From positions 2,170,001 through 2,234,000 of the forward strand of contig OZ024847.1 in the NCBI GenBank assembly GCA_964017145.1: a stretch of 64,000 nucleotides of DNA, read 5' to 3'. Shown piece after piece: positions 1-54,855 of the stretch; position 1 is the first letter of the stretch; the number at the start of each line of letters is the position of its first letter. The stretch comes from Agrocybe praecox (taxonomy: Eukaryota > Basidiomycota > Agaricomycetes > Agaricales > Agrocybaceae). Both the position numbers and the translations under genes were made by a program. The notes beneath the pieces were generated by a model. That model searched no databases and had not been told where the DNA came from. It saw only the letters and a program-made list of their open reading frames with translations.

Positions 1-1243
1 TTAGGCGGGTATTAAGCTTTATGTCACTTAAGACAGAGGAAACTTTATCCCAATACGTTTATTTAGGTTCCTCGAGAACTCTGCAAGTTAACTCAAGTCG
101 CTCAACTAACGCCAAGATGCTCAAATGACACGGTAGGTAGTCTGTTCAATAAAACCAGCTCTCGCGGAGATTTATTAGGTACCAAAGGTCGATCCTAGGA
201 GTTTGCAACTCAATGCGCGTTCCTCGAATGTGGACAACTGGGTTCTAGTTTATCTGGGGTGCTACGGTAATTTACAGGCTGCTTATATACTGCTAGGTTT
301 CGGAAAATACAGGAATACTTGGAGCGGATCGGAAATGCTCGGAAAATACAGGAAATAATATTATTGGTTAACGCTAGGTAGCTCCACTCGATGCATAAGC
401 AACCAGTAGGTACCATGCGTGTTTTTGTATACCCTCGGAAGGGTTCGTATGGTTGGGCAAGTCGCTGACTCGAGCATGACGCTCCGAGGGCGCTTATTCG
501 CATTAGCCGACGATCATTGATCGACGTCGTAGGGTCCGAAGCATCGGAGTACCGTGGTATCGTATGGATCTATAATCCTCGGCTCCACAACTGCCGTTTA
601 AGGTAACTGCGCATATCCGAGGGTCTTAAGACCATGTGTAAGCGTTCCTAGGAACTTCTCCTTTTAGGTTTATCAGCGATCTGACTCGAGCAGACGTCGG
701 CAAGTCCTAATTGACATTACTAGTGCTTGTCTCGTCGTTTGCATAGTGCCCACTATGTTCCTAGGGACCAGTAATGTACTTTGTTAATGCTAGGATCAGT
801 CCTACCGCCTTGAGTTAGCGTTCCTAGGAACGTTGGCAGTAGTTTACATGTACTTTCATATGGTGGGAACTTTTCGTTTCCATATTAGGTAGATGTGGAC
901 GCATCGCGCACTGCGTAATAATAAGTGGCTATAGCGCCGTTTAAGCTTATTATCAGCAGGCTCTAGCTTACATTCCTGATGGTTGAATATTATCCTAGGA
1001 GCCTTCGATCCTGCTGCATCGCTGTTAAAGCGTTCCACGCATTTCCGAGGAACTACTATAACTAACTCTAGCATTCGTAAGGTTCGTCCTAGGGTTCGTA
1101 GAATGGTTTCCCCTAGCCAAACATGTAGCTATCCTCGCTCTGTACTTATGTAGACTTAATAATAAACGTGTTTATTATGCCGAAAATTAAGTAGGATAGA
1201 TACTTGGTTAAAGTTCAGTCACAGCCGAACACCAGTCGTATCA
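1..1243 (-). repeat. 3' LTR of the giant Ty3 element (truncated by window edge)
   Basis: Direct repeat of 14147-15389. In element sense it starts TGATACGACTGG. Its other end is outside the window. It contains several perfect palindromes of the dispersed TTCCTAGGAA family (644-655 and 819-832) and a hairpin with AATAAA on both strands at 1159-1178. Short ORFs inside the repeat are duplicated exactly in the other LTR but look non-coding. Confidence 0.93.
1159..1178. other. LTR hairpin with AATAAA on both strands
   Basis: A 9-bp inverted repeat around a 2-nt loop (ATAATAAAC / GTTTATTAT) puts the poly(A)-type hexamer AATAAA on each strand. The second LTR has it at 15305-15324. It could give bidirectional 3'-end formation, which would suit an element transcribed on both strands; this use is inferred. 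Confidence 0.4.
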
Positions 1244-1258
1244 TCTCCCCCCAACTTA
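1244..1258 (-). other. Polypurine tract of the giant Ty3 element
   Basis: In element sense this reads TAAGTTGGGGGGAGA and touches the TG start of the 3' LTR, the expected position of the plus-strand primer. The same 14-mer recurs at 3939-3952. Confidence 0.75.
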
Positions 1259-1530
1259 TAATTCGGACTGTCCTCAGTCATACTTCGAGTTAGGCCTCTG
1301 CCGTTTTCTGGTTTTTGCTTGCCTATCAGATAAAAACTCTCGTCTTATCTTTCTCTTTGACAGGTCTTTTACTATCGGACTTAGCCATATTACTTGTAAG
1401 CTTTTCTTTATTAATTACAAGCTCATGCTATTTTTAGTTTCGAGTTCTCCGCGCCTTAAGGCCTTTGCGAATAACGAAATAAACTCTTGAGAAGTTTGAT
1501 ACGAGTCACGTCGTAATCGCTTCTGGTTCA

Positions 1531-1557
1531 GGGTCGATTTTCCCCTAGGATATAAGG
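1531..1557 (+). promoter_or_regulatory. Probable core promoter of antisense gene A
   Basis: TATAAGG at 1551-1557 lies 57 bp before the ATG at 1614. Just upstream is GGGTCGATTTT (1531-1541), which recurs exactly beside the TATA box of gene C (5201-5211), followed in both by a CCTAGGA motif. A shared regulator of the two genes is inferred. Confidence 0.5.
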
Positions 1558-1613
1558 AGGTCTGGTAGGGTTTATTCGCTAAGTCCCCCTTTTCTTTCCT
1601 TCCCTTTATCCCT

Positions 1614-3645
1614 ATGTCTACCTTTGGTAAGGCCTCGTACCCGGCCGGCTTTATCGAGTACGACGTTGACTCCTTGTCTTCTCTCGACGCCGAGAAGGCC
1701 TACTTGCTTCTCAAATCCGAGTTTGATACTCTGAACGACCTTGTGAAGCCTTTCCTTGCCTCGGTCCGTTCAAAACAAAGGGCTTTGACCATCGCCGGGT
1801 ATGCGGTCCCTGTGCTAGAGGCCATGCAACCCCACATCGTACGTCCCTTCCATTCTTTTTCTTATGTTACCATGTCCTTACACCGCCCTCATCCTTAGAG
1901 CGGTTCTTGGACTCGTCCCGAAGCTCATAAGCTCCTATGCCGGTTTCGCCTTCGATGGGCTACTGTGGCGACTCTTTGTCTCATGTTTTGTCCTCCATCG
2001 GAACCAGTAGTGGAGGTTTTCGACGAATTCTACGTTAACGGTACCCCCTCTCTGGCCACGACTGCCGAATTATGGAACCAGTGCGACGTTGGATCCGACG
2101 CCGATGAATTCTTGAACCAGTATGCCAAGATTCAAAAGCAGATTGCAACAAGGAACGCGAAGAACACGAAGAACACGAAGAACACGAAGAACGCGAAGGG
2201 TGCGAAGAAAACCTCGTCCAAAAACCCGCGCCCTAAGCCCGAGCGTCCATCCTCTTCGAAAGCTGCAACGCACGTCGTCGATTCCAGTTCCGAGGACGAA
2301 GACGCACCTCTAGTCCAGCCGGACATCGACGAGCTCGAGGGGGTATCGGAGGACGGCGCGACGCCTGTCCCTGCTCCCAGCTCCGATGGTGTCGAAGTTA
2401 GTGGCTCTCTTCTCCCTTCTATCGCGACTCTCACGCCCGTTCATTCCACTCGCTCTTCTACTCGAAAGCTCGTCTCGGAAGTCTTGCTTCCACCACCTTC
2501 TCGTATTGGCACTCTTCGCAACAAACGCGTCCACACTTCCTCGGAAGTGGCCGACGACGACCCCTCCGCGAAGCGTCCCAAACGAGGTAGTATCAAGGCT
2601 ACTCAGGACTTCGTCAAGACTGAGCCCCATACGACTCATAAGGTATGTTTTCTATTTTATTTTATTTTTCCAGTCCTTGCTCCTTATGAGCTGACTTTTT
2701 ATTTCTTAGTCGGGCAAGAAGGCAGCCGCTGAGCAGCGTGCCGCCAACCTTTCCGCCTATTCTGCTCCCCTGTCGTCCGTCATTCGATGGGACGACGTCC
2801 TAGGGTTCACTCCGCACGTCGAACCTGTAAGTCTCTGCTTCCGCAATCTTTTTCCTTTATGCTAAACGTTTCTTTTCATAGCATGCAACGGAATGCAGCG
2901 TGTGCGTTGGTCAACTCCTCGAATGTACCCCTGCCGTCTTCGGACAACTCTGCGGTACTTGTGACACCCGCCACATTACGTGCTGTGATCACAAGGCGGA
3001 GGACACAGTCCGACTCGCTCACCGCAACGCTGCCTACGAGCGCGGTACTTTTTCCATTCATCGTAAGTCCCATATTTCTTTGTCTTTCTCAAAAATCTAT
3101 TACTAAACGTCTTCTTTTTAGATCTCAAGGACCTTGTCGAGCGTGCCCGCGAATCTCGCGAACAGGAACGTCGCCTCTTGGACCTCTTTAGGTCCCAGCA
3201 GGCCATATCCATCGATCTCGAGATCCAAATGCAGCAGTTCATTCGTGACACGGTCGTTCTTTTCCCAGAAGGTCCCGGCGCTATCATCCGCTCCGCTTTC
3301 GAGGACGTGCACGTCTTTCAGGCGTTCTGCCGTCAACTCTCTGCACTGAACTTTCCTCCTTCCGACGCGGACGACCGTATCCAAACGCTCGAACTTCTTC
3401 TTCGCCGCATGCCTGATGCGATCAAGGCTCGCTTTCCACCTCGTCTTCGCACCCTGCTCGACTCGTCTCTCCCCTTCTTCCACATCCCCGTTGACGCACC
3501 TTCTACCATCGTCAATACCTCTGCTAGCACCGCCGGGTTGCCTCCGGATCAGGATGACTTGGTTATAGAGGTTCCTCGGGCGGAAGAGGACGTGGTCATG
3601 GAGCCAGTCGTTGCGAATGATGACGCAAGCGCCCCCCCTGCTTAA
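1614..3645 (+). CDS. Antisense passenger gene A: 596-aa protein with acidic/basic linker, Cys-rich motif and coiled coil
   Basis: Five exons fit with intact phase: 1614-1838, 1899-2642, 2710-2826, 2882-3062 and 3122-3645. All four introns are GT-AG and 55-67 nt. The product starts with a helical region (residues 1-75). A low-complexity part follows, with an Asn-Lys repeat from a 9-bp microsatellite near 2155-2205, an acidic serine stretch and a KRPKRG nuclear-signal-like motif. Exon 4 (residues about 363-422) has cysteines spaced C-x2-C-x6-C-x8-C-x2-C-x6-CC-x-H, suggesting zinc binding. A charged coiled coil follows. I do not recognise the family. The gene lies opposite to the retrotransposon. 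Introns on this strand cannot be spliced from element-sense RNA, so they survive retrotransposition. Nuclear and nucleic-acid-binding roles are inferred. Confidence 0.75.
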
Positions 3646-4174
3646 CTCTCCTAGAAAATCTTTTCGGTTCTATTAAATTAGAACACTATGTCTTATTCAT
3701 TTTCTAGAGTAGCGTTTTCGTAGGTCGGGGTTCTTTATATTTTTGTACAACGTATATCCCTTTTTGCGGGTTCTTTGCCCGAACGAAATTTATAATCTTT
3801 TTTCTTGTTCGTTTACTTTGCACAACATTTCTAAGAATCTCCCTTAAGTATTTCAAGAAAACTTATAAGCCCTTGAGAAACTTAAAAGAAGACGGCTCTT
3901 CCAAGTTGCTAGGATATCTCTGTTGGCTGGTAGGCCGGCTCCCCCCAACTTAAAGAAGCGACCTCCCGGTCGACCTAGGAAAATCTGATATGCCGGAGAT
4001 GCCCGTGTTTCGCTTAGCAGCACAACCAAAAACGGCTAATCATCTTCCCAGATTGGAAAAAAATGATGGCCTAATTCCGTGTGGCCGCGTGCAACAAAAG
4101 TATCCAGCGCGATCTTCCAGGGGCCCATAAAAGGTGCGACAAACGAAAGGCTGAACCTCGACGGCTCCTTGGCT
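3646..4174. other. Spacer between genes A and B with a second PPT-like tract
   Basis: No convincing ORF. At 3939-3952 it repeats the 14-mer of the true polypurine tract (CTCCCCCCAACTTA on this strand). The stretch could be a secondary plus-strand primer, or the scar of an older 3' end onto which more sequence was added. A TATA-like CATAAAAGG for gene B is at 4126-4134. Confidence 0.5.
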
Positions 4175-4897
4175 ATGTCCGTCTACCCACCCCTAGGAGT
4201 CATCTTCAACCCCCAAGCATTGTCAGATACCATGGACCAGTATCAAACTGAGGCTATGTTGTATCTGGACATACTTGACGATTTGCTAGAGACGCCTATC
4301 CAGGCTAATCCTGCTCGAGTAACGTTCCTAGGAACTGATCAACGATGGTTCGCACTTGTCAGCGCCAAACAACGCCTGGACGAAGCACTTTCCAATCCTG
4401 CCAACGGTACCGAGGAACCCCAAAAGGAGCGTAACTTGCCTCCCCTGGAGCTCATACTCAAGGTAACCGCTGCCTTGGTAAGACCAACTCGTCGTCCTTA
4501 TGTTGTATGCGAGGAGAACTCACTCCTCTTAGATGCAATTCCATCCCGACGACATCAAGTACGGCACAGAGCTTGGACACATATTCATTGACATTAGCTT
4601 TCACTGGGTGGTCATATGGTACATGAATTTCACTGCCTCGCCGATGAACGCCTGGATATGTTGTGTTTTATTCGACCACACACTTCCTAGGTGTTCCGAG
4701 CGTACTGTAATGGTACGTTATGATCGCAAGAACTGTCCTCGGATTAAATTATTAATGCAACTGGGTTTCAGTCGCGCGGCGGTTCGTGGGGGGATCGCCT
4801 TGAATCGTTCCTCGCATCCAACGCTCCACTCGCACTAACCAGCAAACTTCAGCGCATTTTCAAGTTTCGCATGTGGCACCAAGGCCAAATATCTTAG
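4175..4897 (+). CDS. Antisense passenger gene B: 197-aa protein of unknown function
   Basis: Three exons fit in phase: 4175-4462, 4533-4712 and 4772-4897, with GT-AG introns of 70 and 59 nt. The ATG at 4175 lies about 41 bp after CATAAAAGG. The product starts MSVYPPLGVIFNPQ; residues 1-96 look helical and the middle exon is aromatic and Trp-rich. No known domain is recognised. The 12-bp palindrome GTTCCTAGGAAC (4324-4335) sits in its first exon, showing that the element-wide motif also enters passenger coding sequence. An alternative is that B is an upstream part of gene C, but B has its own stop and C its own TATA box. Confidence 0.6.
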
Positions 4898-5190
4898 AAG
4901 AGTTTTTCCAGAGCGGGCTTCATTCCTAGGGTTCCAAATGCGCTTCACCGGAATGGTGAAGTTTTCATTCGATCAGTAGAGTAGTATTTGTACTGTACCC
5001 CTTTTTTTGATCGATCCACCGTTGCCCATATGCAGCCATTATGCTCCAACTCGATCCTCAATACAATTTGCACTTCCGCTCTCGTAGTCCGAGTAAAATT
5101 TTCATTGTTGTGTCTCCTCGCGCACATGTCCTCCCGAGCGGGGCCACATGGTTCCTCGGAATGACGACTCTGTTAAATTTTACCACAGCA

Positions 5191-5211
5191 CTATAAAGGC
5201 GGGTCGATTTT
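5191..5211 (+). promoter_or_regulatory. Probable core promoter of antisense gene C
   Basis: CTATAAAGG at 5191-5199 is followed at 5201-5211 by GGGTCGATTTT, the 11-mer also found at the gene A promoter. The ATG of gene C is at 5269, about 70 bp downstream. Confidence 0.55.
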
Positions 5212-5268
5212 CGAGGTCCTAGGATTCAACACCAAGGTGCTATCTTCCCGGTACACGCTTTTTCTTGC

Positions 5269-6649
5269 ATGCCCGACCTTTCTCCCAGCGTCCTCGAGGT
5301 AAAAGCTGCGGTAGGTGTGCAATACCACCTTGCCAAAGCCGAAACCATTTCCTCGGAGAAAAATGGCGAGTCAGCCTCCGCTCACTTGGCTCTCATCTGC
5401 GAGAAACTTGTAAGTGACCTTCCTAGGACCGCTCTTCTCTGCTTAACACGCTTCCCCCGACATCGCTCAGGCTCCCTGGTTCGAACAGTCAGACAATGTC
5501 TGGCTCGCTGGACAAGAGGCGTTTGACTTGGTGTTCAATCTCCGAGATTCTCTTGCAGCACTCGTACGCTTAGGCAGCGAGTATTCCAGGAGGTTCTCCA
5601 AGGAGGCCCAGTCCGTTAGCCTTCTCATCAAGTTCATCTATGCCAAGCGCACTTCTACTGGTCTCTACTGCCCCGGCGGTCCTCCATTCATGAATCTGAA
5701 GAAGAAGACTTCGTCCGAAACTGTCGAAAAAGCCACAACTGCGGACCCTGAGGTTGCAGATAATGGAGCACACACCGCGGTATGTCCATTCCTTTTACTT
5801 CCTCGGATCGTTTTGACTGACGCTTTTCGTTAGAACAAACAACGCTCTGGTCGTTTGTATAAAGAGAAGGTTGACTCGGAAGAGGTAGAGGTCGTATCTT
5901 CTACTACCTCTAATTTTGAGCTGACTTCTGACGAGGTAATGAAAACCCTATCCCCTTTCCTTATGAACCTTATTCACGCGGTGCAGGCTATGCAAGTCGA
6001 CGACGACATGGTGGAGGTGGCTTCTATTGTCAGCGCTCCCCCCGCGTCGCAGAGACGCAAAGGTAAAGGAACCAAAAGAGAGGTCCTCTCTCCCAAGGCA
6101 AGTACCTTATTTCACTTCCTAGGAAATTGGGACTGATTCATTACTCGTACCAGCCGGAGGCTTCCTCTTCCTCGAAACCTTCCAAGGCCGAGAAACGTGC
6201 TGAAACTCGCATGCTCGAGTTCGAGGACGTTCCTGGAATTGCTACAGACTCTGGATCTTACAAGAAAGCGTCCAAGTCGGTCAAGAAGAGCAAAACCAAG
6301 GATACTGTGGACAGTACGTTTTGATTTTCTCTTATGTTTTTTTTTTTTTTTTTTTTTTTTTTTTCCTCGGATACTAAATCGTCTTGCTTTAGTTACCCTC
6401 GAGAACACTATTCTTCCAAACACCTTCTCGCCTCAATCTACAGCCGTCGCTATGAACATTGCTGAGAGCATCGCTGCGAAGTTCCCTCAAAACCGCGATG
6501 TCGCTGCACTTGAGCGTCACCTTAGGTGTCTCCGGGACAGTGCTCAGGATGTTGACTACCAGATCTGGCAGTCTGTTGGGCAGCGTCAATTCATTCAGCG
6601 CCAAATCGTCTCCCTCGAGAAAGCTCAGGTTGACGCTAAAAAGGACTAG
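5269..6649 (+). CDS. Antisense passenger gene C: 376-aa protein with C-terminal coiled coil
   Basis: Five exons fit in phase: 5269-5409, 5471-5779, 5834-6097, 6154-6313 and 6393-6649. Introns 1, 2 and 4 are GT-AG. Intron 3 (6098-6153) would use a GC donor (GCAAGT), the usual non-canonical class. Intron 4 holds a run of 28 T at 6337-6364. The product has a helical N-terminal third, a middle acidic region followed by basic KGKGTKRE, a lysine-rich stretch near residue 230, and a C-terminal coiled coil ending DAKKD. No family is recognised. The stop lies 58 bp from the end of pol on the other strand, so C and pol converge tail to tail. C shares a promoter 11-mer with gene A. Confidence 0.72.
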
Positions 6650-6707
6650 TCTTATCCTTCCTAGGGTACAAGCTATATTCGAGTAGACTCATAATATATT
6701 TGTCTTT

Positions 6708-9700
6708 TTACTCATTTTCATTTTTGTTTTCTGAAGTCGATCCTCGGAGAGTCACTTCTCCTAGTATCGGGTCGTACACATCCTCGGGTCCATTCTCAAT
6801 CAAATCTAGTGCCGAAGTTGGCATATCTATCAGAGTCTGAATCGACTCAGGTAGTTCTAGATGTTCTCTAGCATAGTATGGTACTACTCTGAAGGCTCCA
6901 ATTTTATTTTGCAAGACCGCTCCATTCATTTCAGCGACTATATAGGACCCTCCCCGAGTTCGTCGTATGACAATCATCGGTCCTAGGTACCTAGGTTTCA
7001 TTTTCTTATCCAAGGATTTTTCTATGGTAGTATTCCGTACCAAAACCAAATCTCCTGGTTTAAAAACGTAGTCCTTGATGACAGCTTTGTGGTCTTGCTC
7101 ATATTTCAATAGACGCTCGTATTTATCTTGGTCTACCCTTTTGCGCATCTCATCCACATGAAGTTTATGTTTGGCGAGCGCTTTTGCTCGGAATCCAATT
7201 AACTCTTCATCTGATAAAATTCGCTCAGGAGGTTTAACCAACCAAGTAGCTTCTTGGGCGTCTAAAGGTAGAATTGGTGATGCCCCTGTTACCATGAAGA
7301 AAGGTGAACATCCTAGACGTTTCCTGACCGTTACTCTATCTGCCCACTTAATGTAAGGAAAGAACCAGAACCACTTGTTCACATCGTCTTTTCCTAGCAT
7401 TTTGTACAGCATTTGTCTGACATCCCAATGTGGTCTTTCTATAGCGCCATTGGCCTTCGAGTTATAGGGTGAAATACGAATTCCCTTAATCCCATATTTT
7501 TCCTCGAGCCATCGTGCAGCAGCTAAAAATGGTCCCCCATTGTCTGTTATGAACTCCACCATACAAGCCCATCTACAAATGATGTCTTCCCAGATCCATT
7601 GACCGATTGACTTGCCATTTTCCTTTTTCAAGGGTCTCCCTTCCATATAAGAAGATAGAGCGCACCTCCCATGGACAATATACGAGCAACCGTTCGATGG
7701 AGGAGTCATGTTGATACAGTCCGCATGCATACTTTGAAATATAGAAGGAGTATGTGTAATAGATGGTTTTATTCTTATTAATGTCTTTTGTCTTTCCTGA
7801 CAATTATGACATGTCTTAACGAACCAGTTCACATCTTTCTCCATTTCTGGCCACCAAAATCGTTCCACTAGCAACTGATTAGTCGCATAGAATCCTCGGT
7901 GCCCCACATGATCATGCGCAGCCGTCAACATGTACATCCTTTTATCTTTGGAGACCACTAATCGGTGCTTGGTTCCATCTCCCCTTCGATACAAACGTTC
8001 CTCGAATAGTATGAATCGTTTTGCTAATGTTATAAAACGTTTATACTGTTTCTCGGACATCCCTATCGGCCTGAAGGATCGATCCTTGTGCCATTCCATC
8101 ACCCAATCTAACTTGTGGTCTTGTGCTTTAGCTGTGTCCGACCTATGTTCCTCGGGATATCGTATTTTCTTAAATTCGTTTTCCTCGGGTAACATAAGTG
8201 TAGATACTAGCTGTTGCACATAAGCACATCTCTCTTCTCCTAGAGCCTCTTTATTTCGACTGATGTGTTCTTCTAGGAAAGCTTTTTCCGACATACGAAA
8301 CTCATCTGCTTTAGCAAGCTCTTCTGAAAAGTCTTCGACGTCTCTAGCAATGCCCTCGTACTCATCGTCTTTTTCTATTAGACTAATGAAAGATTCTAAT
8401 GGTAATGGTTCAGAAACCTCCTGTAGATATCCTCCTCGGGAATCTATCTTATCTTTGAAGGTCTCGGTTTCCAACGGCATAGGCCCATTAGGATCCGCAA
8501 ACTCTATTTTGATGGGCGCTTCTGGCTCCATTTCCTCGGAACCAGCCTCCCTTAAGGGTGGATCATTGGGCTGCCTTGGCCTCCTAGAGAGTCCATCAGG
8601 CCCGAATGTCTTTCCTGGTACATGCCTTAGAGTAAAATGATACATCCCAATTTGATCGATCCAGCGATTGATTGTAGCATTAGGCATAAGATCGGGATTG
8701 CGAAGCATTCCAGCGATATACTTAGCATCCGTCTCGACAATCAACTTTCGGACTCCAATTAAATGTTTTCTATTTTTCTCAAGTGCTAATTTGAGTCCGT
8801 AGAGTTCTCGCTTAGGCTGAGAGTATCTAGCTTCGTGTTCTTCCAAGGACTGAGATCCAAAGGTAACATAGTAGCGTTTCCTAGGATCTTGACTATCCTC
8901 TTGGTAGATGTACCAGCCTGCTGCAATATAAGAAGTGTCCACTGCTAGTACTATATCTCCCTGACCATGATAGTCTATAGGCTTTAAGCACTGAGCATCT
9001 CGGACCCCTTCCTTCATTAACTGCATACTCTTTTCTTGATCAGGACCCCATTCGAAAGGTACTCCTGCTCGCATTAGCTTGTGGATGTGTTTTGCACGAT
9101 CTGCAAACCTAGGAATATATGCTCTCAATACTCCGCAAGTTCCATAGAAGGAGCGCACATCCGACACATTTTTCAAAGGTCCCCAATCGAGGATAACCTT
9201 AACTCGACTCTCAGTAGGCTTACGTCCATCCGAGGAACATAAGTGTCCTACTACTTCTACAGCATCTGCGCATATGACGGTTTTATACCCGGAGAAAGTT
9301 CCTCCAGAGTATTTCATCCGTTGTATAATTCGATTTACATTTTGCAAGTGTTCCCAAACGAATTTCCTAATGCCAGGATTCTCGGGTAACACTTCATAGG
9401 TCCCATCCTCATTTTGGTAACGAGAGGCCGGTCCTCGGAAACCTACGTCGTCGATATATGGACTTGTGTACTCAGGAATTTCATCCTGTAAGATATGGGT
9501 TACATCGTCATGGAATATAGGTACTGAGTTTGTCCAACCCATTGGTAAGGTGGTTAACCTAAGCGCTCCAAAGGGTGATTGGAAAGTGGTAAGATCCCTA
9601 GAGCTTTCAGCTAAAGTTCTCTCATCATATCCAACGTACAAATCTCCCATCCCAACACAAGCACGTCCACAAAAGTGAATAGCAAGTTCTTCCGCAGCTG

Positions 9701-10526
9701 GTGGGACTCCTGAGTGCGCTATAGTAACCGCGTTCAAAGGTTCCAAGCTTTGGACTATTCGAAGACTTTTCCCATCTTTCTTTAATACAGCAAACCACCT
9801 CGAACGATAGGACGAACACGAAGGTTCCATTACTCCACTTTTCAACTTGGATCGGATTAATTCGCAAAGTGGCTCGTATAACCCTGGTGAAATCGGAATA
9901 TTTTTAAATACCCAAGGAGTGTGTTCTACCGTAGGCATAATGACTGGTGGAAAGAACTCTTCCTTGAATTTTCCTCTTTCCGAATCATCCCAAGCGAAAG
10001 CTTCGTTCTGGTTCATAAGTAGCTCGTGTATTGATTTCCGTTCCTCGGACCACAGAAAGTCCCCTTCGTGCTTAGCGTCAAAGGCTTTCATGCGTTCCTC
10101 GGTGTACCTTCCTGTTGGTTGGAAGTCTGGTGGATTAACACTTAAGGGTGGCATATCCTGCAATGGATCCCCTTTAATATTTCGATGGATTCTCAAGTTT
10201 TCTGGAAGTTCAGTGTAAACCGGTCGGACTTTCTTGTCTACCGGTTTGTACTTTTTTCCTAGGAAAACTGAAGCGGAAGGTTCATTCTCTTTAACCTCTG
10301 GTTTAATATCTTGTAGATAAATCTGGAACTTTCTTTTGTCCGCAGTCTCTACATGCTCGCTATCTACTGCTCTTGACAAGAAAACATTTCTTAGGCCATC
10401 CTTGGAAAATGCTTTCTTATCCACCTGTGTCGTATACGATTCTATTTTTATTTCTCCGGTTTTATGATCATATTCAAAAACAACTGCCGCCTCTCCCTGG
10501 TCTTCCAGTTCATTAAGGCAATTTAA
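6708..10526 (-). CDS. pol: Pol polyprotein (reverse transcriptase, RNase H, integrase) of the giant Ty3 element
   Basis: One open frame of about 1270 codons. RT has the polymerase motif YIDDV preceded by the TLPMGWTNS region. RNase H follows (LAVDTSYIAAGW), then an H-H-C-C zinc motif ending CHNCQERQ. The integrase core has its D, D and E in ADC, TDNGGPF and ANGAIERPH. The tail is a basic GPY/F-like region; I see no chromodomain, unlike the other two LTR elements here. The frame has no ATG near its start; its first possible start at 10424 is GTG. It is open back to the slippery site at 10526-10532, so it is probably made only as a Gag-Pro-Pol fusion through a -1 frameshift. It makes and inserts element cDNA. 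Confidence 0.95.
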   Translation of the reverse strand, partial: LNCLNELEDQGEAAVVFEYDHKTGEIKIESYTTQVDKKAFSKDGLRNVFLSRAVDSEHVETADKRKFQIYLQDIKPEVKENEPSASVFLGKKYKPVDKKVRPVYTELPENLRIHRNIKGDPLQDMPPLSVNPPDFQPTGRYTEERMKAFDAKHEGDFLWSEERKSIHELLMNQNEAFAWDDSERGKFKEEFFPPVIMPTVEHTPWVFKNIPISPGLYEPLCELIRSKLKSGVMEPSCSSYRSRWFAVLKKDGKSLRIVQSLEPLNAVTIAHSGVPPAAEELAIHFCGRACVGMGDLYVGYDERTLAESSRDLTTFQSPFGALRLTTLPMGWTNSVPIFHDDVTHILQDEIPEYTSPYIDDVGFRGPASRYQNEDGTYEVLPENPGIRKFVWEHLQNVNRIIQRMKYSGGTFSGYKTVICADAVEVVGHLCSSDGRKPTESRVKVILDWGPLKNVSDVRSFYGTCGVLRAYIPRFADRAKHIHKLMRAGVPFEWGPDQEKSMQLMKEGVRDAQCLKPIDYHGQGDIVLAVDTSYIAAGWYIYQEDSQDPRKRYYVTFGSQSLEEHEARYSQPKRELYGLKLALEKNRKHLIGVRKLIVETDAKYIAGMLRNPDLMPNATINRWIDQIGMYHFTLRHVPGKTFGPDGLSRRPRQPNDPPLREAGSEEMEPEAPIKIEFADPNGPMPLETETFKDKIDSRGGYLQEVSEPLPLESFISLIEKDDEYEGIARDVEDFSEELAKADEFRMSEKAFLEEHISRNKEALGEERCAYVQQLVSTLMLPEENEFKKIRYPEEHRSDTAKAQDHKLDWVMEWHKDRSFRPIGMSEKQYKRFITLAKRFILFEERLYRRGDGTKHRLVVSKDKRMYMLTAAHDHVGHRGFYATNQLLVERFWWPEMEKDVNWFVKTCHNCQERQKTLIRIKPSITHTPSIFQSMHADCINMTPPSNGCSYIVHGRCALSSYMEGRPLKKENGKSIGQWIWEDIICRWACMVEFITDNGGPFLAAARWLEEKYGIKGIRISPYNSKANGAIERPHWDVRQMLYKMLGKDDVNKWFWFFPYIKWADRVTVRKRLGCSPFFMVTGASPILPLDAQEATWLVKPPERILSDEELIGFRAKALAKHKLHVDEMRKRVDQDKYERLLKYEQDHKAVIKDYVFKPGDLVLVRNTTIEKSLDKKMKPRYLGPMIVIRRTRGGSYIVAEMNGAVLQNKIGAFRVVPYYAREHLELPESIQTLIDMPTSALDLIENGPEDVYDPILGEVTLRGSTSENKNENE

Positions 10527-11629
10527 AAAGGGTCGTCTGGAGACTTAGGCGGTAGTTCCACCACTTTCTCGTCAAACTTTTCTTTTTGCAGCTCAATCGG
10601 TCCCTTTCCTCGAGCATAAGTAGGAATTACTACTCGCCTCTTGGAGTTAGGATCAGTCAAGAGAACCTCCACATATCCGTCCGTCATAGTCTTTACTACA
10701 CTCGTCGTAACCGTGTCAAAAGGCTTTCCTAGGAGCACCCTGTAAGGCGGGTTCCTGACGATATGTATCTGTAGATAGACCACTATCCCTCCAACCATTA
10801 TTTTTACGTTCTCTGCGATTCCTAGAGTCCGTTCTAACTGGTTGTTGGCACTTTGCATATTTATGCTAAGGGAAGGGTTCCAGGATAATCCCATCTCTAC
10901 AGCGACTTGTTGTGACATAGATACAATCTGAGATCCACTGTCTAAGATAGCATTTTCGAATCCTACATTATTAATTTGCACTTGAATCTCCCGAAGACTT
11001 TCAGCGTTCCTAGCACGGTCCCTATAAGGTTCCTTGGGTACGGCTCCGTTATGTTCGAGCGCAAACTGATAATAAGGGTCACTGGCTACAATGGCGTCTG
11101 CAGGAAGGTTACTCAAGCTTGAACAATCTTTTGCTAGGAGGAATTGAGAAACCGGCAACTGTTCTACAGCTAAGCCTGTCTCGATTTCATGATACAGGGG
11201 AAGTTCCTCGTGTCCCTTGGAACACATCTCTGTTTCATGATCATCTTCTAGGATCTCCTCCATGAGCACTGCTTGTCTAGTTTTCGTAAAATTCTTTCTT
11301 AACGCCTCTCGTATGTGTGGCGCACTTCCCACTAAGTGTTTTAATGGTACTGATATGGACATATCCAATATGTCGTCCACCATTTTATTTCCGTCCGTGC
11401 TATCTTCCACAGGTGCCCTAGTACGGTACGCAGGCACGGGTCTTTCCTCTTTCTTCTCGTCCGAGGAAGTATTCGTAGGCCTCGATACTCTAGACATAGG
11501 CGGTACATCTATGTAAGGTAACAACGGTCTTTTGGGCTCGCTCTTTTTATTATTTTCTGGTTGTGTCTCTTCTCTAGGAACTTCTGGTTCCTTATCGAAT
11601 CTGACACTTTTCTTTTCTTTACTAAACAT
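10523..11629 (-). CDS. pro: Retroviral-type aspartic protease ORF of the giant Ty3 element
   Basis: A 368-residue ORF from ATG 11629. Its frame is open further back, into the end of gag, as expected for a frameshift product. The aspartic protease active site ILDSGSQIVSMSQ lies at about residue 230, followed by the flap region and a hydrophobic segment ending VLLGKPFD. The N-terminal 200 residues are charged linker. It lies -1 relative to gag and +1 relative to pol. It cleaves the Gag-Pro-Pol polyprotein during particle maturation. A separate protease frame is rare in Ty3/gypsy elements. Confidence 0.88.
   Translation of the reverse strand: MFSKEKKSVRFDKEPEVPREETQPENNKKSEPKRPLLPYIDVPPMSRVSRPTNTSSDEKKEERPVPAYRTRAPVEDSTDGNKMVDDILDMSISVPLKHLVGSAPHIREALRKNFTKTRQAVLMEEILEDDHETEMCSKGHEELPLYHEIETGLAVEQLPVSQFLLAKDCSSLSNLPADAIVASDPYYQFALEHNGAVPKEPYRDRARNAESLREIQVQINNVGFENAILDSGSQIVSMSQQVAVEMGLSWNPSLSINMQSANNQLERTLGIAENVKIMVGGIVVYLQIHIVRNPPYRVLLGKPFDTVTTSVVKTMTDGYVEVLLTDPNSKRRVVIPTYARGKGPIELQKEKFDEKVVELPPKSPDDPF
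10526..10532 (-). promoter_or_regulatory. -1 ribosomal frameshift site, protease to Pol
   Basis: On the coding strand the heptamer is C CCT TTT in the protease frame, directly followed by that frame's TAA stop (10523-10525). Slipping -1 enters the Pol frame (TTA AAT TGC...), which is open to 6708. Downstream, CTGG-AAGA-CCAG can form a small hairpin enclosed by TGCC/GGCA. Confidence 0.75.
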
Positions 11630-11721
11630 CCCTTTACTCCTGCTGTTATTGTTCTCAAGGTTCGTAGCTGTTCTCGGACTTATTCTCTTAGCCCCAGCTG
11701 CAGGTGGTCCTATCCTTGAAC

Positions 11722-13452
11722 TTAAGGAAAATTTTCGAAAGCATCTACCGCACCTTCGCCAAAGAGTACTCGTTCGAGAGCTTCTTTTCCATGCTCTCTT
11801 ACTAAGTCGTCTAAGCGCCTAGAGATGTCTTCCGCGGGAGGGCAAACTTCCTCGGATTGAACGAACATCTCACAATCTTCTTCATACTCAGGATAATACC
11901 CTTGCATGGCTTGGATTTTGGCGTTGGGAATAATCCCTGGTTTATTACGGTACATGTTTTCTACTGCTTCTCTCATAGACCTGAATCCTTGGAGAGGTAT
12001 GGGCTGTCCAGACGCTAGCGCATACTTTCCCTCGGAATTCCTTTTGATCCAATTCGACTTTACATGTTTATCTGCTGCCGCACAGTCAGCTAGACGATGT
12101 CCAGGCTCTCTACAATAATAGCAGTGACTGGGTTGGAACCCATTTGAATTATTGTAGGAAGACCTATCATAAGGCCTAGGGTACATAGAAGACGGTTGCG
12201 TTGGTTGAGGGGCCACAGCTGATTGCTTCCAACTTACTAGGGTAGATTGTAGGCTTTCAAACTTCCTCTCCGCAGCTTCTGCTCGCTTTTCCTGTACCTC
12301 TGACTTCTTTAATAGAAGATTTAAGCCATTCGAGAGCCTAGCCACGGTCTCCTCCATTTTAGGGAAGAACTCAGGAGTTTCCTCGGGTTGAGTTTCCATC
12401 GTTCTCCTTCTCGAGGAAGGTTTTTCAGAACGAGTTTCTTTATCCCCTTCGTTCAAAATAGATTGTGACCTTCTCAAAGCCATGTTTACAACAATTTCCA
12501 TGACTTTGGCGACTTTGAAATCGGTTCCTAGACCTAGACTATCTTTATTTTGCGCCATGTCGATGACATGTAGTGCCTGCGAGATTTCGTCTCTGAAACC
12601 TCTTTCTAAACAGCTCAAGAATCGTTGTATTAGATCCCTTTCAGACACTTGACCCGCTAGCTTTCGAGATAGAGTGGTAAACTTGAGTTTCAACGCCATG
12701 ATTTCCTCTAGGTCTGTTTTCATCAAGCTATTCCTGTCTACATATCTCGAGCATAGTTTATCAAGGTCGTGTAGAGATCCTTTTTGTAGGCGCATTGCCG
12801 CTGGATACGAAGCGATCAATTCGTCTTTAAACTTTGACCAGTCTTTCCCGGTATATGCGTTAAAAGACTTCCAATCATCCTCGCATACTGGCGAAGCATA
12901 TTTCCCTAACATAATAATTTTCTTTTCATCCGTATCAGCTTCAGTAGGATATTGAACCCAGAGATCTTCCATTCGCTGTATGAAGCGGAGGAGTTCCTCG
13001 GGACTCTTTTCATCGAACTTCGGCGCATCTCTGCTCATAGGAGAAGGGAAACCCATCTTTGGTGATACCGGAGTAGTTGGTCTACTTGTAGTAGGTTGTG
13101 TTGGTGAATTAGGAGCTAGATTCAACTTGTCTAATAGACTAGCGATGACTTCTAAGCTATCTGATTCTGAAGTTGTCTCCCTAGGATCTTCGAGAGAACT
13201 TGTATCGATAGTAGGTCGATTAACCGGTCTCTGAGGCGCACTCGGAGGTCTGATTAACTGCCTATTTTCTGGAGTTGTAGGTCGCTCTCTGCTTGGTTCA
13301 GCTGGAAAGTCTCCTGGAACTCTTTGGGAGGGCGTACTCGCTCTGGTTTGTCTTTTCCTAGGAACCCTAGTAGGTAATTCCGCGAAACCTGCTTGTCTCG
13401 AGTTATTCGTTTGCCTAACTCGTTTAGCTTGTCCTGCCGGTTGATTATCCAC
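11722..13452 (-). CDS. gag: Gag of the giant Ty3 element
   Basis: A 576-residue ORF. The N-terminal third is Pro/Ser/Thr-rich. A helical capsid-like region follows (about 150-330), containing LRFIQRMEDLWVQYP and a segment near RDLIQRFLSCLERG. A coiled coil near 385 and a CCHC zinc knuckle (CYYCREPGHRLADC, about 465) precede a helical C-terminal tail. It would form the virus-like particle and bind element RNA. The start at 13452 is the first ATG after the leader. Dispersed TTCCTAGGAA-type motifs occur in its coding sequence in different frames. Confidence 0.93.
   Translation of the reverse strand: MDNQPAGQAKRVRQTNNSRQAGFAELPTRVPRKRQTRASTPSQRVPGDFPAEPSRERPTTPENRQLIRPPSAPQRPVNRPTIDTSSLEDPRETTSESDSLEVIASLLDKLNLAPNSPTQPTTSRPTTPVSPKMGFPSPMSRDAPKFDEKSPEELLRFIQRMEDLWVQYPTEADTDEKKIIMLGKYASPVCEDDWKSFNAYTGKDWSKFKDELIASYPAAMRLQKGSLHDLDKLCSRYVDRNSLMKTDLEEIMALKLKFTTLSRKLAGQVSERDLIQRFLSCLERGFRDEISQALHVIDMAQNKDSLGLGTDFKVAKVMEIVVNMALRRSQSILNEGDKETRSEKPSSRRRTMETQPEETPEFFPKMEETVARLSNGLNLLLKKSEVQEKRAEAAERKFESLQSTLVSWKQSAVAPQPTQPSSMYPRPYDRSSYNNSNGFQPSHCYYCREPGHRLADCAAADKHVKSNWIKRNSEGKYALASGQPIPLQGFRSMREAVENMYRNKPGIIPNAKIQAMQGYYPEYEEDCEMFVQSEEVCPPAEDISRRLDDLVREHGKEALERVLFGEGAVDAFENFP
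11728..11734 (-). promoter_or_regulatory. -1 ribosomal frameshift site, Gag to protease
   Basis: On the coding strand A AAT TTT (XXXYYYZ with X=A, Y=T) sits in the gag frame a codon before its TAA stop (11722-11724). A -1 slip continues into the protease frame without stops. A CCTT/AAGG hairpin lies just downstream. Confidence 0.72.
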
Positions 13453-13523
13453 TTTAGCTTCCTCGGAACTTTAGAACCGATTTAATTGAGCTTCAGCCAA
13501 ATATTTTTGTGTTTTTTGTTTTT

Positions 13524-13546
13524 AATAAACCTCGTCAAGGTTTATT
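13524..13546. other. Leader hairpin upstream of gag
   Basis: Perfect 8-bp stem AATAAACC / GGTTTATT around a 7-nt loop, 72-94 nt before the gag ATG. It is either a structural signal of the leader RNA or a 3'-end signal; the sequence does not decide. Confidence 0.35.
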
Positions 13547-13571
13547 CACTCGTTTAATCTGGACACCAAGA

Positions 13572-15389
13572 TGCAATCTCTCACTTCGAGACTCGTAACT
13601 TTAGTGAAAGAAAACACCCTCCCTCGCGGTGGGCTCCAGATAAGGTGCTTGCTGCGGGGTTGAGTGTGTATGTACGATTTGTACTTTGTATATACTCCGA
13701 AACAAAACCCAATCAATGTGATTAGTTCTTTCGTGGGAGGGATACGCGATACGCGTCGTTGATTATGTTTTCTCTCTAAAGATACGCTCTCTAATGCAAC
13801 AGAACGTTTCCTAGGATCGAAGATCACAAGTGCTTGAGTAGCTTACGCACAAAGCGAAGTTCCTCGGAAAGTGTAAACGTAGATTTAATGTGTTTCCACA
13901 AGATGTAGTGTGTAGGTAGTTCGCCACTTAGGCTGGATACTTAATCCCAAGTCTTTTAATCACTTAGAAAGGGGACTCAATCCTAAACGGGCCACTTAGG
14001 CGTCACTTAGACTATTTGCCACTTAGGCAGGGAACTTATCCCTTGGAACGGGCCACTTAGGCGTCACTTAGACAATTTGCCACTTAGGCAGGGAACTTAT
14101 CCCTAGGAACGGGCCACTTAGGCGTCACTTAGACAATTCTTGCCACTTAGGCGGGTATTAAGCTTTATGTCACTTAAGACAGAGGAAACTTTATCCCAAT
14201 ACGTTTATTTAGGTTCCTCGAGAACTCTGCAAGTTAACTCAAGTCGCTCAACTAACGCCAAGATGCTCAAATGACACGGTAGGTAGTCTGTTCAATAAAA
14301 CCAGCTCTCGCGGAGATTTATTAGGTACCAAAGGTCGATCCTAGGAGTTTGCAACTCAATGCGCGTTCCTCGAATGTGGACAACTGGGTTCTAGTTTATC
14401 TGGGGTGCTACGGTAATTTACAGGCTGCTTATATACTGCTAGGTTTCGGAAAATACAGGAATACTTGGAGCGGATCGGAAATGCTCGGAAAATACAGGAA
14501 ATAATATTATTGGTTAACGCTAGGTAGCTCCACTCGATGCATAAGCAACCAGTAGGTACCATGCGTGTTTTTGTATACCCTCGGAAGGGTTCGTATGGTT
14601 GGGCAAGTCGCTGACTCGAGCATGACGCTCCGAGGGCGCTTATTCGCATTAGCCGACGATCATTGATCGACGTCGTAGGGTCCGAAGCATCGGAGTACCG
14701 TGGTATCGTATGGATCTATAATCCTCGGCTCCACAACTGCCGTTTAAGGTAACTGCGCATATCCGAGGGTCTTAAGACCATGTGTAAGCGTTCCTAGGAA
14801 CTTCTCCTTTTAGGTTTATCAGCGATCTGACTCGAGCAGACGTCGGCAAGTCCTAATTGACATTACTAGTGCTTGTCTCGTCGTTTGCATAGTGCCCACT
14901 ATGTTCCTAGGGACCAGTAATGTACTTTGTTAATGCTAGGATCAGTCCTACCGCCTTGAGTTAGCGTTCCTAGGAACGTTGGCAGTAGTTTACATGTACT
15001 TTCATATGGTGGGAACTTTTCGTTTCCATATTAGGTAGATGTGGACGCATCGCGCACTGCGTAATAATAAGTGGCTATAGCGCCGTTTAAGCTTATTATC
15101 AGCAGGCTCTAGCTTACATTCCTGATGGTTGAATATTATCCTAGGAGCCTTCGATCCTGCTGCATCGCTGTTAAAGCGTTCCACGCATTTCCGAGGAACT
15201 ACTATAACTAACTCTAGCATTCGTAAGGTTCGTCCTAGGGTTCGTAGAATGGTTTCCCCTAGCCAAACATGTAGCTATCCTCGCTCTGTACTTATGTAGA
15301 CTTAATAATAAACGTGTTTATTATGCCGAAAATTAAGTAGGATAGATACTTGGTTAAAGTTCAGTCACAGCCGAACACCAGTCGTATCA
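13572..15389 (-). repeat. 5' LTR of the giant Ty3 element
   Basis: 14147-15389 is certain, as it matches 1-1243. The gag-side end is inferred at about 13572: there the LTR would end GATTGCA in element sense, followed after 3 nt by TGGTGTCCAG, which has the TGG start expected of a tRNA primer site. That would make the LTR about 1.8 kb. I could not match the primer site to a specific tRNA, so this inner boundary is provisional. Confidence 0.75.
13988..14150. repeat. CACTTAG tandem repeats in the 5' LTR
   Basis: About two and a half copies of a 61-bp unit (GGGCCACTTAGGCGTCACTT...). Each unit carries three CACTTAG cores, flanked by more single cores up to 14180. Such arrays in LTRs often act as enhancer or protein-binding arrays; that role is inferred. 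Confidence 0.7.
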
Positions 15390-16835: not shown

Positions 16836-18365
16836 TCTTAGACAATTTTCATCTTTCTTTCCCTCCCCCCACCACCCACTTCTGCCCACTTGCTTCGTCA
16901 CTGGTTCTATATACTGTACCGCAGGTGTCCTGATGTTTTAGCCTATCTGGTCCAAATTTTTGAACTCGATAGCACCGCTCGACGGAAAATCACTATGTAT
17001 CCTCGGCCTGCAATCTTTATCTGCCTCCCCGCGCTTCCGCTGGAGCAGTCCAGGATGCGGCTGGAAGGCATAGCTGGGCTCGGAAGCGCGTCGAGCAGCC
17101 TTGCACGATGGCGGTAGTGGGCAAAGGATGATGTTATTGATTCGGCTATGGACGCGTCGTTGGCATACAGGTAATGGATCTAATCTAATCTAGAGTACGA
17201 ATCGGGCAGTAGGTCAGACTGCACTGCCACACCGCTCTTTCTTCTTTTTCTAGCAGTCATAAAATCGAGTACGTCAAAGATAGAGTAGGCCTAGGTAGGC
17301 TCTCGGAGTCGGCTGTATATTTTACATTGACGTTCAAGCGACCAATGCCATCAGCGTACTCGTATGTCCAAACATGTCTCCATCCCGCTCTGAACCCTCT
17401 TAACTCGAAACACCCTCCAACCATTTCCATTCATCCATAGCATCGTTCGTCTCTTCATGTCTCTTGAACTTTCCGACCCCCTAGTATTGGGTCAGTCCAA
17501 ATTGCTCGTCTTCACAGCATCACGCTGCTGGTGAAAGCATGGACGTCTGTTTCATTGCGTATTCTGTATGGCAATACAAATTATGTGAGAAAATCATGTT
17601 TTTATGAAAGTCTTGGATTCAGAATAATGTATATTCCACATTCAGTCCCTTTCTTCGCCGCCACTTCCTACCCTCTCTCATTTCAACCAGTGTTGATCAC
17701 CCTTGTTAACGCCCAACCGTTTCGCCCACTCAGTAAACAACGCACCGTAGTCGATCCACCTATCGCCACCTCGTTGTGGAAGAACGACATCTTGTATGCT
17801 GTTCTCTCAACCCAAAATAAAGTAGAGAACTATTTTGAATACGTCAATGCTAAAGATGACACCAAGTAAGTAGCATATTTCACACGGCGAGCTGGATCTT
17901 TGAAACTTGATTGCATTAACACTTACTGGGAACATTTCCGAAAGGACGAATGCAATACTGCGTTGCCGGGTGCATCAAAGTAACGTGTTTTTATTTATTT
18001 AGTTTTGAAGTATGTAGGACATCTTTGAGTTTGGTGCCGAGAAGTGTATGAGTGGGGTGCTCAAAATGTTCTCAATATTACTGGTAATTCTTGTGAAGGT
18101 GAAAATAGCCCAATGACTTTCAGCTCACAATCGAAAAGCTGCAGAGTAGGCGCTAACGAGCTCTGATGTGCCATGCTGCCAGTGTTAATATGACGTTCAC
18201 AGCCTTCAGGTTAATTTTGGAGCATCGTAAGTATCCGCTCTTGTCTCTTGTTTATAACAAACACATGGACGGTATAGAACCTCAGTGATTATATTGTGGA
18301 CCATACAGTCTCAAGCTGCTTTTGACTTACCAACAAGCTCCCTCCTTTTCTTCGATTCGTGTGCA
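16836..18365. other. Intergenic stretch before the first TPR gene
   Basis: Holds a decayed coding fragment (17040-17202, listed separately). An open stretch of about 110 codons at 17531-17869 is without recognisable motifs, and 17960-18280 resembles the regions upstream of the other two TPR genes (31921-32300, 42410-42790). No other gene is supported. Confidence 0.4.
17040..17202 (+). pseudogene. Decayed coding fragment, copy 1 of an inverted pair
   Basis: Similar over about 160 bp to the reverse complement of 42251-42402. The 42-kb copy reads as an uninterrupted frame on the minus strand (WRSWARKRIEQPRTMVVVGK... to a TAG), whereas this copy has lost the frame. The protein is not recognised. 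Confidence 0.5.
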
Positions 18366-21300: not shown

Positions 21301-21867
21301 TCGATCGACATAGATCGAGATCAAGACCGATTTCCATTTTCCTGGATTTTGTCTGATCTTCTTGCCGACGCTGGGGAGGAAGAAGCCCTCACTGCTGCAA
21401 ATCAGGCCATAGAAGAACGCAAGAAATGGCACGAGAGTTCCTCAATCATCGACAAGGAACGTTATGCACAGGCGCAGTATACTCTGTCCCTACGTCTCTT
21501 CGCAAACAACGATCTTGTTCCGGCACGAAAGCTGCTTCTCAAGGTCTGCAAATTCTACCGACAACATTCACAGACGAGACATATCTGGTTTATCAGACTG
21601 GCTATAACCTTATGGGCATTGGGACACCTAGAGTGCGCATCAGGCCGACACGAAGAAGGCATCGCTGCAAGAACCGAGCTCACCGAGTTACGAAAACAAC
21701 TTCGACTCATATTTCCGCGTCTTGATAAATTTGTGGAGGTGGGATTAAAAAGAGAACGAAACTTTGCTGCATGGAAGAACCTGCTCAAAAAGATCAATCT
21801 AAAATGTGGACACCAGGACGAAGGTGATATACTCGAAAGCGCAGTTTTTGACAGTCTTGTCGGATGA
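18366..21867 (+). pseudogene. TPR-repeat protein gene, copy 1 (one-base frameshift)
   Basis: Exons 18366-18467, 18526-18668, 18717-18894 and 18947-21867, with three short GT-AG introns matching copies 2 and 3. Exon 1 encodes a hydrophobic N-terminal helix (TDPLSIALAVISLATALKD) like the N-terminal domains of fungal STAND proteins. Exons 2-3 are charged helices, exon 4 a long helical array of TPR-like units. At about 20821-20830 the sequence has one base fewer than copies 2 and 3 (ATATTTTTATTC against ATATTTCTTATTC). This shifts the frame, which then stays open to 21867. Otherwise it aligns with copy 2 throughout. It is either a recent pseudogene or a base error in the assembly. No P-loop NTPase motif is present. 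Confidence 0.8.
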
Positions 21868-22129
21868 GCCTGTAGCATTCGCAGACTAGGTTTGAATTGG
21901 CTATCTTTGATCCTTTTTCCTTTCGCTCTTACCTGTTAACAGGTTTCCTTCTGGCACTCCATCGGTTGACATGGACTCTTCTTTTTTTGTACCAGTAGTT
22001 ATAATAACGTACAAAATTGTATCTGATATTTAGTATAATTCTAGTCTCTATCATTCGAGGTAGGTACTGCGGCAGCCCATAACCCTGAGGCAGGAAACAC
22101 GGGAAGAAAGTTGGCGTTGATGAGCCATG

Positions 22130-22330
22130 CTAGAATTTGTACATGGCATCTCCGAACAACTTGGTCATATCTGCAGACAGTTAGCAGCAGGTTCACATAA
22201 ACATTCTATATCATTTAGTTACGAGGTATTGATGCTTAGATGTCGTAGTTTGTATTCCAGATACAGGATCTTCAACTAGTAAGTGTCTTGAAAAAGGAGA
22301 GGGGTACTACTATCTGTGAATAAACCGATC
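22130..22330 (-). pseudogene. Remnant of a convergent gene, copy 1
   Basis: The last exon would read ADMTKLFGDAMYKF and stop at 22130, after a CTGCAG acceptor. The same ending (ADMIKLFDDIMYKF) lies at 36151 downstream of TPR copy 2. Upstream of it, an EDPV segment and a STPL-like segment also match, but with a deletion here. The gene is unidentified. It shows that the TPR gene was duplicated together with its downstream neighbour. Confidence 0.5.
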
Positions 22331-54845: not shown

Positions 54846-54855
54846 GTCTCACTCT

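Follow-up and report, generated by a model that had tools for sequence, protein, structure and literature searches.

Can a retrotransposon, which spreads through an RNA copy of itself, keep genes interrupted by introns, and what would such genes do for it? This question is raised by a stretch of 64,000 nucleotides (hereafter the window) from the basidiomycete Agrocybe praecox (contig OZ024847.1, positions 2,170,001 to 2,234,000; G000:C8:2170001-2234000 in our searches of the 59.2 Mb genome), in which a long terminal repeat (LTR) retrotransposon of the Ty3 type carries three multi-exon genes, here called A, B and C, on the strand opposite to gag-pol. An earlier note, made from the letters of this DNA, had described the three genes as the cargo of a live element. 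The term cargo, which suggests passengers, needs correcting: the genes are present in 11 of 11 copies, bear signs of selection and are matched by a counterpart in a sister lineage, and so they are probably genuine accessory genes of the element, maintained by selection and acting in trans. As to "live", the identical LTRs stand, and they are the sole basis for the word.

Three antisense genes in a young Ty3-type element

The element spans about 15.9 kb, from 506 bases to the left of window position 1 to position 15389, and is flanked on both sides by a 4-bp target duplication, GCGC (AGCGC if 5 bp are counted). The two LTRs are identical across 1,749 bp. In the sense of the element, the order is TG-LTR, primer binding site, gag, protease, reverse transcriptase (RT)-RNase H-integrase, a region of 5.5 kb, polypurine tract and LTR, with the primer binding site TGGAGCCCACC beginning two bases past the 5' LTR. 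Gag, protease and pol occupy the minus strand from 13470 down to 6708 in overlapping open frames; the Pfam scan reported protease, RNase H and integrase zinc-binding domains in them, and no chromodomain. It also gave a weak hit to DUF4100, whose distribution, like the style of the genes, would fit a host among the Agaricomycetes. The top match of pol in the PDB is Ty3 Gag-Pol (E 1.3e-27), with RT and RNase H at 228-654 followed by integrase at 857-1108. Its LTRs and target duplication, the order protease-RT-RNase H-integrase, the primer binding site and the polypurine tract identify the element as a Ty3-type LTR retrotransposon.

Genes A, B and C lie between pol and the 3' LTR. Their introns are 51-79 nt long and obey the GT-AG rule, save for one GC-AG intron in C (donor 6098), and TATA-like boxes are visible by eye near 1549, 4124 and 5190; that of A, the only one compared, is roughly retained in a diverged copy of the gene. 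In the place of the genes, the types of splice site and the presence of TATA-like boxes, as in the five-exon, 596-codon model of A, our reconstruction agrees with the earlier note, and the frames and splice sites of its three spliceable genes hold in other copies of what is a young, multi-copy element. B and C stand as multi-exon genes, B with three exons, at sizes other than those first proposed: we obtained 202 amino acids for B, for which 197 would need a donor 15 nt upstream, and 359 for C, for which 376 would need the 51-nt intron 5936-5986 to be kept. These alternatives to our models differ in three-base steps.

DNA searches of the genome returned 13 places for A and 12 for C, of which 11 each span the whole gene or nearly so, the remainder being short or damaged. 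Besides the window copy, the full set comprises c2 (L023), c3 (L024), c4 (L025), c5 (L026), c6 (L027), c7 (L028/L029), c8 (L030), c9 (L031), c10 (L032) and c11 (L033). The copies are 97-100% identical along most of their length, and by this measure the family is young, with roughly 11 copies. The frame is intact in 11/11 copies for A, 11/11 for C and 9/11 for B; pol, in a search that scored 36 of 322 candidates, is open over its entire match in 8/11, with TGA stops in c8, c9 and c11. The antisense genes are thus not decaying ahead of pol, and the pattern that the earlier note had named as fatal to its proposal, stops in A, B and C beside an intact gag-pol, was looked for and not seen. Three of the copies carry insertions: one of ~29.8 kb inside gene B of c7 (C8:2937095-2966880; the outer parts alone were examined), one of ~0.48 kb in pol of c8 (L030 about 7663-8139), with an apparent 8-base target duplication, and one of ~0.86 kb in c9 (L031 about 5240-6102), in the interval that separates B from C, with an apparent 4-base target duplication.

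Strong evidence for selection on A comes from c10 and c11, in which the A cassette has been swapped for a diverged form. Their A differs from that of the window by 21.6-21.8% in exons and 38.6-41.8% in introns, and the B and C exons beside it differ by 0.6-1.5%. The swapped-in A keeps GT-AG at 4/4 introns, has five exon indels (36, 6, 12, 6 and 6) that are all multiples of three, and retains unchanged the six cysteines that are spaced, by eye, as C-X2-C-X6-C-X8-C-X2-C-X6-C. Between the two forms (A1 and A2) dS is 0.92 and dN 0.12, giving a dN/dS of 0.133 (0.134 for c11), and the differences fall 79/59/248 on codon positions 1/2/3. Of the six frames the proposed one alone is free of stops, the others having 15, 36, 15, 28 and 42; four of these give ratios of 1.6-2.5 and one, the reverse frame rc1 with 28 stops, gives 0.22. 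For A of c7 against that of the window, dN/dS is 0.25. A further foreign stretch is found in c7 (~3500-4250); outside the foreign stretches of c7, c10 and c11 divergence is mostly 0-5%, and the edges of the swaps are sharp. These alignments show that the A cassette has been exchanged between lineages of the element, for which template switching among co-packaged RNAs, or gene conversion, would be sufficient.

Within the family, where 141 non-coding changes served to estimate the transition bias, synonymous, nonsynonymous and stop changes number 18/16/0 in A, 15/12/2 in B, 12/16/0 in C and 55/19/0 in pol. The comparison of dN/dS across copies that the earlier note had called for thus yields ratios (omega) of 0.40 for A (p 0.006) and 0.38 for B (p 0.009), beside 0.15 for pol (p 2.5e-15); the value for C is weighed below. 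All three genes are under less constraint than pol. In C the introns are more variable than the exons (18/260 vs 28/1,080 sites, p 0.0013). Taken together, these patterns argue firmly for A as a selected spliced gene, and B and C are probably selected spliced genes as well.

Relatives of the genes and a motif of the family

Distant A-like exons occur at C2:2361.8-2363.2k (46% identity), at C8:2459.0k and C4:377.5k (38%), the latter two being 91% identical DNA at two places, and on C5 (46%, with stops). A relative on C6 (L055), with 60% pol identity over RT, holds a two-exon model of 193 amino acids and an open frame of 273 amino acids on the opposite strand, within the 2.1 kb that follow pol. 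The 273-residue frame shows C-X2-C-X6-C twice and a coiled-coil-like end, and a second copy in C8, whose neighbouring pol match has a stop, keeps it at 97%. This sister lineage therefore apparently carries an antisense, multi-exon gene in two copies, which suggests that antisense genes recur in the clade. Homology of A to the L055 protein was considered and is not claimed: the match (E 0.012) is confined to a low-complexity stretch, and the likeness of the cysteine layouts is one seen by eye. In a third lineage (L056, C13, 50% pol identity) an antisense open frame of 130 amino acids lies just 3' of pol (L056:171-560); it is matched at 84%, with one stop, in C10, where a pol on the minus strand lies 4.1 kb away on the near side, and a further match has no scored pol in its neighbourhood. 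This frame is a possible third type of antisense gene.

A, B and C themselves do not appear to be one duplicated family, as BLASTP gave no match for B-C and A-C, the pairs compared. The cysteine spacing of A resembles what we take to be the spacing of Zn(II)2Cys6 fungal regulators; membership in that family was not supported: the family profile gave no match at E 1 or E 10, and A lacks the basic residues that usually stand among the cysteines. No TRP28 domain (PF04195) was found by Pfam in A, B or C. Structure prediction for exon 5 of A (5 sequences) gave a helical model (predicted local distance difference test 57.9, predicted template modelling score 0.31) too poor for a fold search. Outside this genome no homologues were found among 7,992 scored candidates for A and 4,036 for C, a set limited to proteins 0.55-1.75 times the query length, below which intron-split metagenome predictions would fall; we do not read this failure as absence. 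The pol control in the same search found 1,145 relatives, so fungal DNA is represented in the set. Searches of viral and prokaryotic contigs found no relatives of pol.

A short motif, TTCCT[A/C]GGAA, is dispersed over the element. It was first noticed by reading the repeated TTCCTAGGAA and TTCCTCGGAA, the statistical tests coming afterwards. Its 58 CCTMGG cores in 1-13640 compare with 9.5 (standard deviation 2.9; maximum 17) in 200 dinucleotide shuffles; in the remaining 48.6 kb of the window there are 22 vs 25 expected (60 shuffles), i.e. no excess. An unbiased scan of 7-mers in the internal region is headed by CCTAGGA (26 vs 1.6) and CCGAGGA (25 vs 2.0). Against shuffles of synonymous codons the cores are in excess in pol (16 vs 2.3) and gag (8 vs 1.2; 0/500 in each case) and in B (4 vs 1.0; 1/500), and three control frames of the window have 1, 0 and 0 cores, at or under expectation. 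The relative on C5 has 27 cores vs 2.7 (0/200 shuffles). No enrichment was seen in three stretches of the sister lineages L055 and L056 (1, 2 and 0 cores) or in the chromodomain Ty3 element at 54661-61645 of the window (3 vs 4.3). Genome-wide, GTTCCTMGGAAC has 169 forward matches vs 6 and 11 for a reversed-pattern control. The two A forms have in common 2 of 5 motif columns each, and the gags of the window and of L035 share 3 motif sites, out of 8 and 6.

L035 (C5:3016000-3025999) consists of short relatives arranged head-to-tail with common LTRs and lacking most of pol; they match the window at about 90% in the LTR and 73% in gag, contain a decayed piece of A exon 5 and are motif-dense. The LTR region of the sister lineage (L055:2250-3700), in part made of imperfect duplications, shows a high density of sites resembling GAACGTTCG/ACGAACGT (ACGTTC 15 vs 2.1 expected), which are possibly that lineage's own family motif.

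The copies may also bear a mark of the host. Relative to the window copy, C>T/G>A changes affect 97/1,046 CpG bases vs 69/3,297 other C/G bases (p 4.9e-22), which suggests methylation by the host; the excess is clearest in c8 (39/64) and c9 (44/71), is not evident in c2-c6, and in c10 T>C is as frequent as C>T. The CpG observed/expected ratio is 0.97 in the window copy and 0.99 in its surroundings. We infer that resident copies are probably methylated at CpG and that the lineage which replicates would escape the decay this causes.

Table 1. Positions in the window of the features of the element
Feature	Position	Strand	Basis or remark
Gene A, 596 aa	1614..3645; exons 1614-1838, 1899-2642, 2710-2826, 2882-3062, 3122-3645	+	sequence model
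Gene B, 202 aa	4175..4897; exons 4175-4477, 4533-4712, 4772-4897	+	weakest model of the three
Gene C, 359 aa	5269..6649; exons 5269-5409, 5471-5779, 5834-5935, 5987-6097, 6154-6313, 6393-6649	+	sequence model
A cassette swapped for a diverged form in c10/c11	approx. 1405..3502	+	divergence bins and alignments
Dispersed motif TTCCT[A/C]GGAA, 58 CCTMGG cores	1..13640	either	dinucleotide and synonymous-codon shuffles, 7-mer scan
3' LTR	1..1243	-	identical to 14147-15389; remaining 506 bases (left end; last in element sense) outside the window
Polypurine tract GGGGGGAGA	1244..1252	-	adjoins the 3' LTR; read from the sequence, named by convention
pol open reading frame (ORF; RT, RNase H, integrase), 1278 aa	6708..10544	-	ORF, Pfam and PDB match
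ORF with aspartic protease domain	10523..11818	-	ORF and Pfam
gag ORF with CCHC zinc knuckle	11722..13470	-	knuckle 19.3 bits, under the Pfam cut-off of 20.8
5' LTR, 1,749 bp	13641..15389	-	14 motif cores; holds a 61-bp tandem repeat

The tandem repeat of the LTR comprises 2.7 copies and lies at 13986-14152. Elsewhere in the window, the chromodomain element at 54661-61645 has 359-bp LTRs that are 99.7% identical and, after pol and in sense orientation, a third ORF of 387 amino acids (60088-61251) ending in a CCHC knuckle that resembles the one of its gag. Three stretches, 18208-22187, 32259-36208 and 42405-48399, are related at 75-85% identity, and the two that were scanned with Pfam, namely the first and the second, encode proteins with tetratricopeptide (TPR) repeats. 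An array of direct repeats with a unit of roughly 48-55 bp occupies 27124-28255.

What the antisense genes may do

The most likely mechanism, which we put forward tentatively, would be as follows. A, B and C would each have a promoter, directing transcription on the opposite strand from gag-pol, and the transcripts would be spliced and translated; the full-length RNA of the element would carry the genes as intact antisense templates, so that their introns would survive reverse transcription, and their products would act in trans for the family. Protein A, with its zinc cluster-like cysteine spacing and a basic stretch, alone or together with C, might recognize TTCCT[A/C]GGAA across the element and thereby protect or activate copies against host silencing. 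The passage of antisense introns through element-sense RNA unspliced was proposed in the earlier note, and it fits the persistence of introns and splice sites in the copies; it illustrates how a retroelement can retain the introns of accessory genes, i.e. on the strand that the genomic RNA hides from the spliceosome. A wider scheme, in which a fungal LTR clade would have evolved sequence-specific anti-silencing with exchangeable antisense spliced genes, nuclear factors and a family motif accumulated throughout the element, even at synonymous positions within gag and pol, we regard as doubtful; if true, each sister family would have its own gene and its own motif.

Several results weigh against these readings of the genes and of the motif. 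B is interrupted in two copies, by a stop at codon 131 in c8 and by the insert that splits it in c7; omega of C, 0.57, is not significant (p 0.10); a contrast in variability between introns and exons within the family is undetectable for A and B (p 0.34 and 0.48); A2 against A2b shows 2 synonymous and 5 nonsynonymous changes, a ratio of 0.83 from too few changes to read; and Pfam has no match for A at E 1, nor at E 10 in its cysteine region. The motif is not enriched over synonymous shuffles in C (1 vs 1.3; 374/500), nor significantly in the exons of A (5 vs 2.4; 39/500) or the protease (2 vs 0.6; 58/500); the A2 cassette has only 4 cores vs 1.8 (20/200 shuffles), and no core is present in the 700-base stretches that contain L053 and L054, two of the distant places with A-like exons. 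Apart from occurring together in the element, A and the motif have no link. The conservation of motif positions among copies is not significant (3/264 vs 252/9,036 changed, p 0.12), and most of the places listed for GTTCCTMGGAAC, a part of the total, form pairs with a spacing of 176-177 bases; these are LTR copies, and so not independent.

A first question is whether A, B and C are functional genes at all. They might be passengers that evolve neutrally, having been captured a single time from the host or a foreign source and then spread with a recent burst, as the youth of the copies makes intactness alone weak evidence and the omega of C would permit; this is very unlikely in view of the constraint between A1 and A2 at a dS close to one, the omega of B, the A-like exons at distant places (46% and 38%) and the antisense gene in the sister lineage; for A it is largely refuted. 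Still less probable, to a degree that we regard as negligible, is non-coding antisense transcription with chance open frames, i.e. control by double-stranded or small interfering RNA: antisense RNA control of LTR elements is discussed in the literature (PMC7264820), and the codon-position pattern, the indels in multiples of three, the kept splice sites and the dN/dS of A all speak against it here.

A second question is what the products do. It is quite possible that A, B and C serve the element as regulators or accessory factors in its transcription, its assembly or its import into the nucleus, a role proposed for the Grande, Retand and HTLV HBZ proteins, the motif being either unrelated or part of a promoter or enhancer. 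Their position and orientation match those of plant antisense ORFs with reported or predicted nuclear localization and DNA binding (PMC7264820, PMC11963269), the density of the motif is highest, among the longer regions, in the LTR (8.0 per kb), and a core adjoins the TATA-like box of A in both forms of the gene; regulation of this kind does not by itself account for the excess of cores at synonymous positions in pol and gag. Anti-silencing after the manner of VANC, in which the product of an antisense gene would bind the motif and strip silent marks from the copies of its own family, is likewise possible, if held with some reserve. VANC21 binds a short motif, YAGTATTAY, that is dense, in a single orientation and rare in other transposable elements (PMC5735166); the motif described here is also dense and family-specific, it lies mostly in a single orientation internally and evenly in both in the LTR, and the older copies show CpG decay. 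The motifs of VANC are found chiefly in non-coding tandem repeats, and here the motif occurs in coding DNA too; nor is there any homology to VANC. The orientation can also be read otherwise, as a signal in genomic RNA, UUCC[G/U]AGGAA, to which Gag or an accessory protein would bind so that the RNA is packaged or exported. CCTCGG and CCGAGG stand in ratios of 8:2 in the A-C region, 10:1 in pol and 5:1 in gag and protease, and this internal bias of 23:4 (two-sided binomial p ~3e-4) keeps its direction along the element whichever strand is the coding one (A-C region 8:2, gag-pol 15:2). We consider an RNA signal unlikely, because the LTR is unbiased (3:3) despite its high density and the palindromic CCTAGG is the commonest single form both there and in the A-C region. 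Binding of the motif by A, possibly with C, to counter silencing is the mechanism that we tentatively prefer, and a family-specific motif makes binding by A, B or C a concrete and cheap question.

Comparison with known systems

Antisense accessory genes were recognized in LTR elements decades ago, to our knowledge without a function having been assigned to them. In the present element several such genes are multi-exon and apparently selected, and one has been exchanged as a cassette between lineages. Judged by their position between pol and the 3' LTR, their antisense orientation, their presence in most copies and the selection on them, A, B and C can be classed as antisense 3' accessory ORFs (aORF-3R). 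New relative to the earlier note are the dispersed family motif, the exchange of the cassette and the antisense genes of the sister lineage.

In the plant Ty3 lineage of Retand, Grande and RIRE2, antisense ORFs occupy the interval from pol to the 3' LTR (PMC11963269, PMC7264820), and the present element is like these in position, orientation, presence in most copies and candidate DNA-related proteins; the region between pol and the 3' LTR is 2.9-6.6 kb in Retand, as described there, and 5.5 kb here. Unlike the present case, the Retand-type ORFs belong to plants and mostly encode TRP28, unmatched by Pfam here, and the word "intron" does not occur in the main text of PMC11963269, whereas here there are three multi-exon genes and a dispersed motif. 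Closer in host is Boty/BcGypsy1 of Botrytis and Sclerotinia, a fungal Ty3 element with an antisense gene, brtn, near the 3' LTR (PMC7264820); going by its description, it differs in having one gene and ascomycete hosts. For fungal Ty3 elements a single antisense gene is therefore already on record; for multi-exon antisense genes, a set of three of which the earlier note treats as unfamiliar in fungi, listings of the open-licence literature showed no report from a basidiomycete Ty3 element. HBZ of HTLV-1 is likewise an antisense, spliced gene carried in a reverse-transcribing element, and its product is a nuclear regulator; it is a single gene with a promoter in the 3' LTR and a bZIP protein, and no homology is claimed (PMC10186651).

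In its combination of accessory proteins with a short, dense family motif, the orientation of which is biased internally (23:4) and even in the LTR (3:3), the element is like VANDAL21 with VANC21 of Arabidopsis, a transposable element under DNA methylation, which for our element is suggested by CpG decay (PMC5735166, PMC10398659). VANDAL21 is a DNA transposon whose motif lies mainly in non-coding tandem repeats, and binding and demethylation were demonstrated there, whereas our case is built on sequence (PMC5735166, PMC10398659). As with VANC, the motif is dense in its own family and not elsewhere, elsewhere being the rest of the window, three stretches of other lineages and one genome-wide count of a 12-mer; the cores are found also in pol and gag, and few of them fall in the 61-bp tandem repeat of the LTR. 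On paper, then, the anatomy of the element resembles that of the plant antisense-ORF elements and of Boty, and its combination of genes and motif is like that of VANC21 on VANDAL21.

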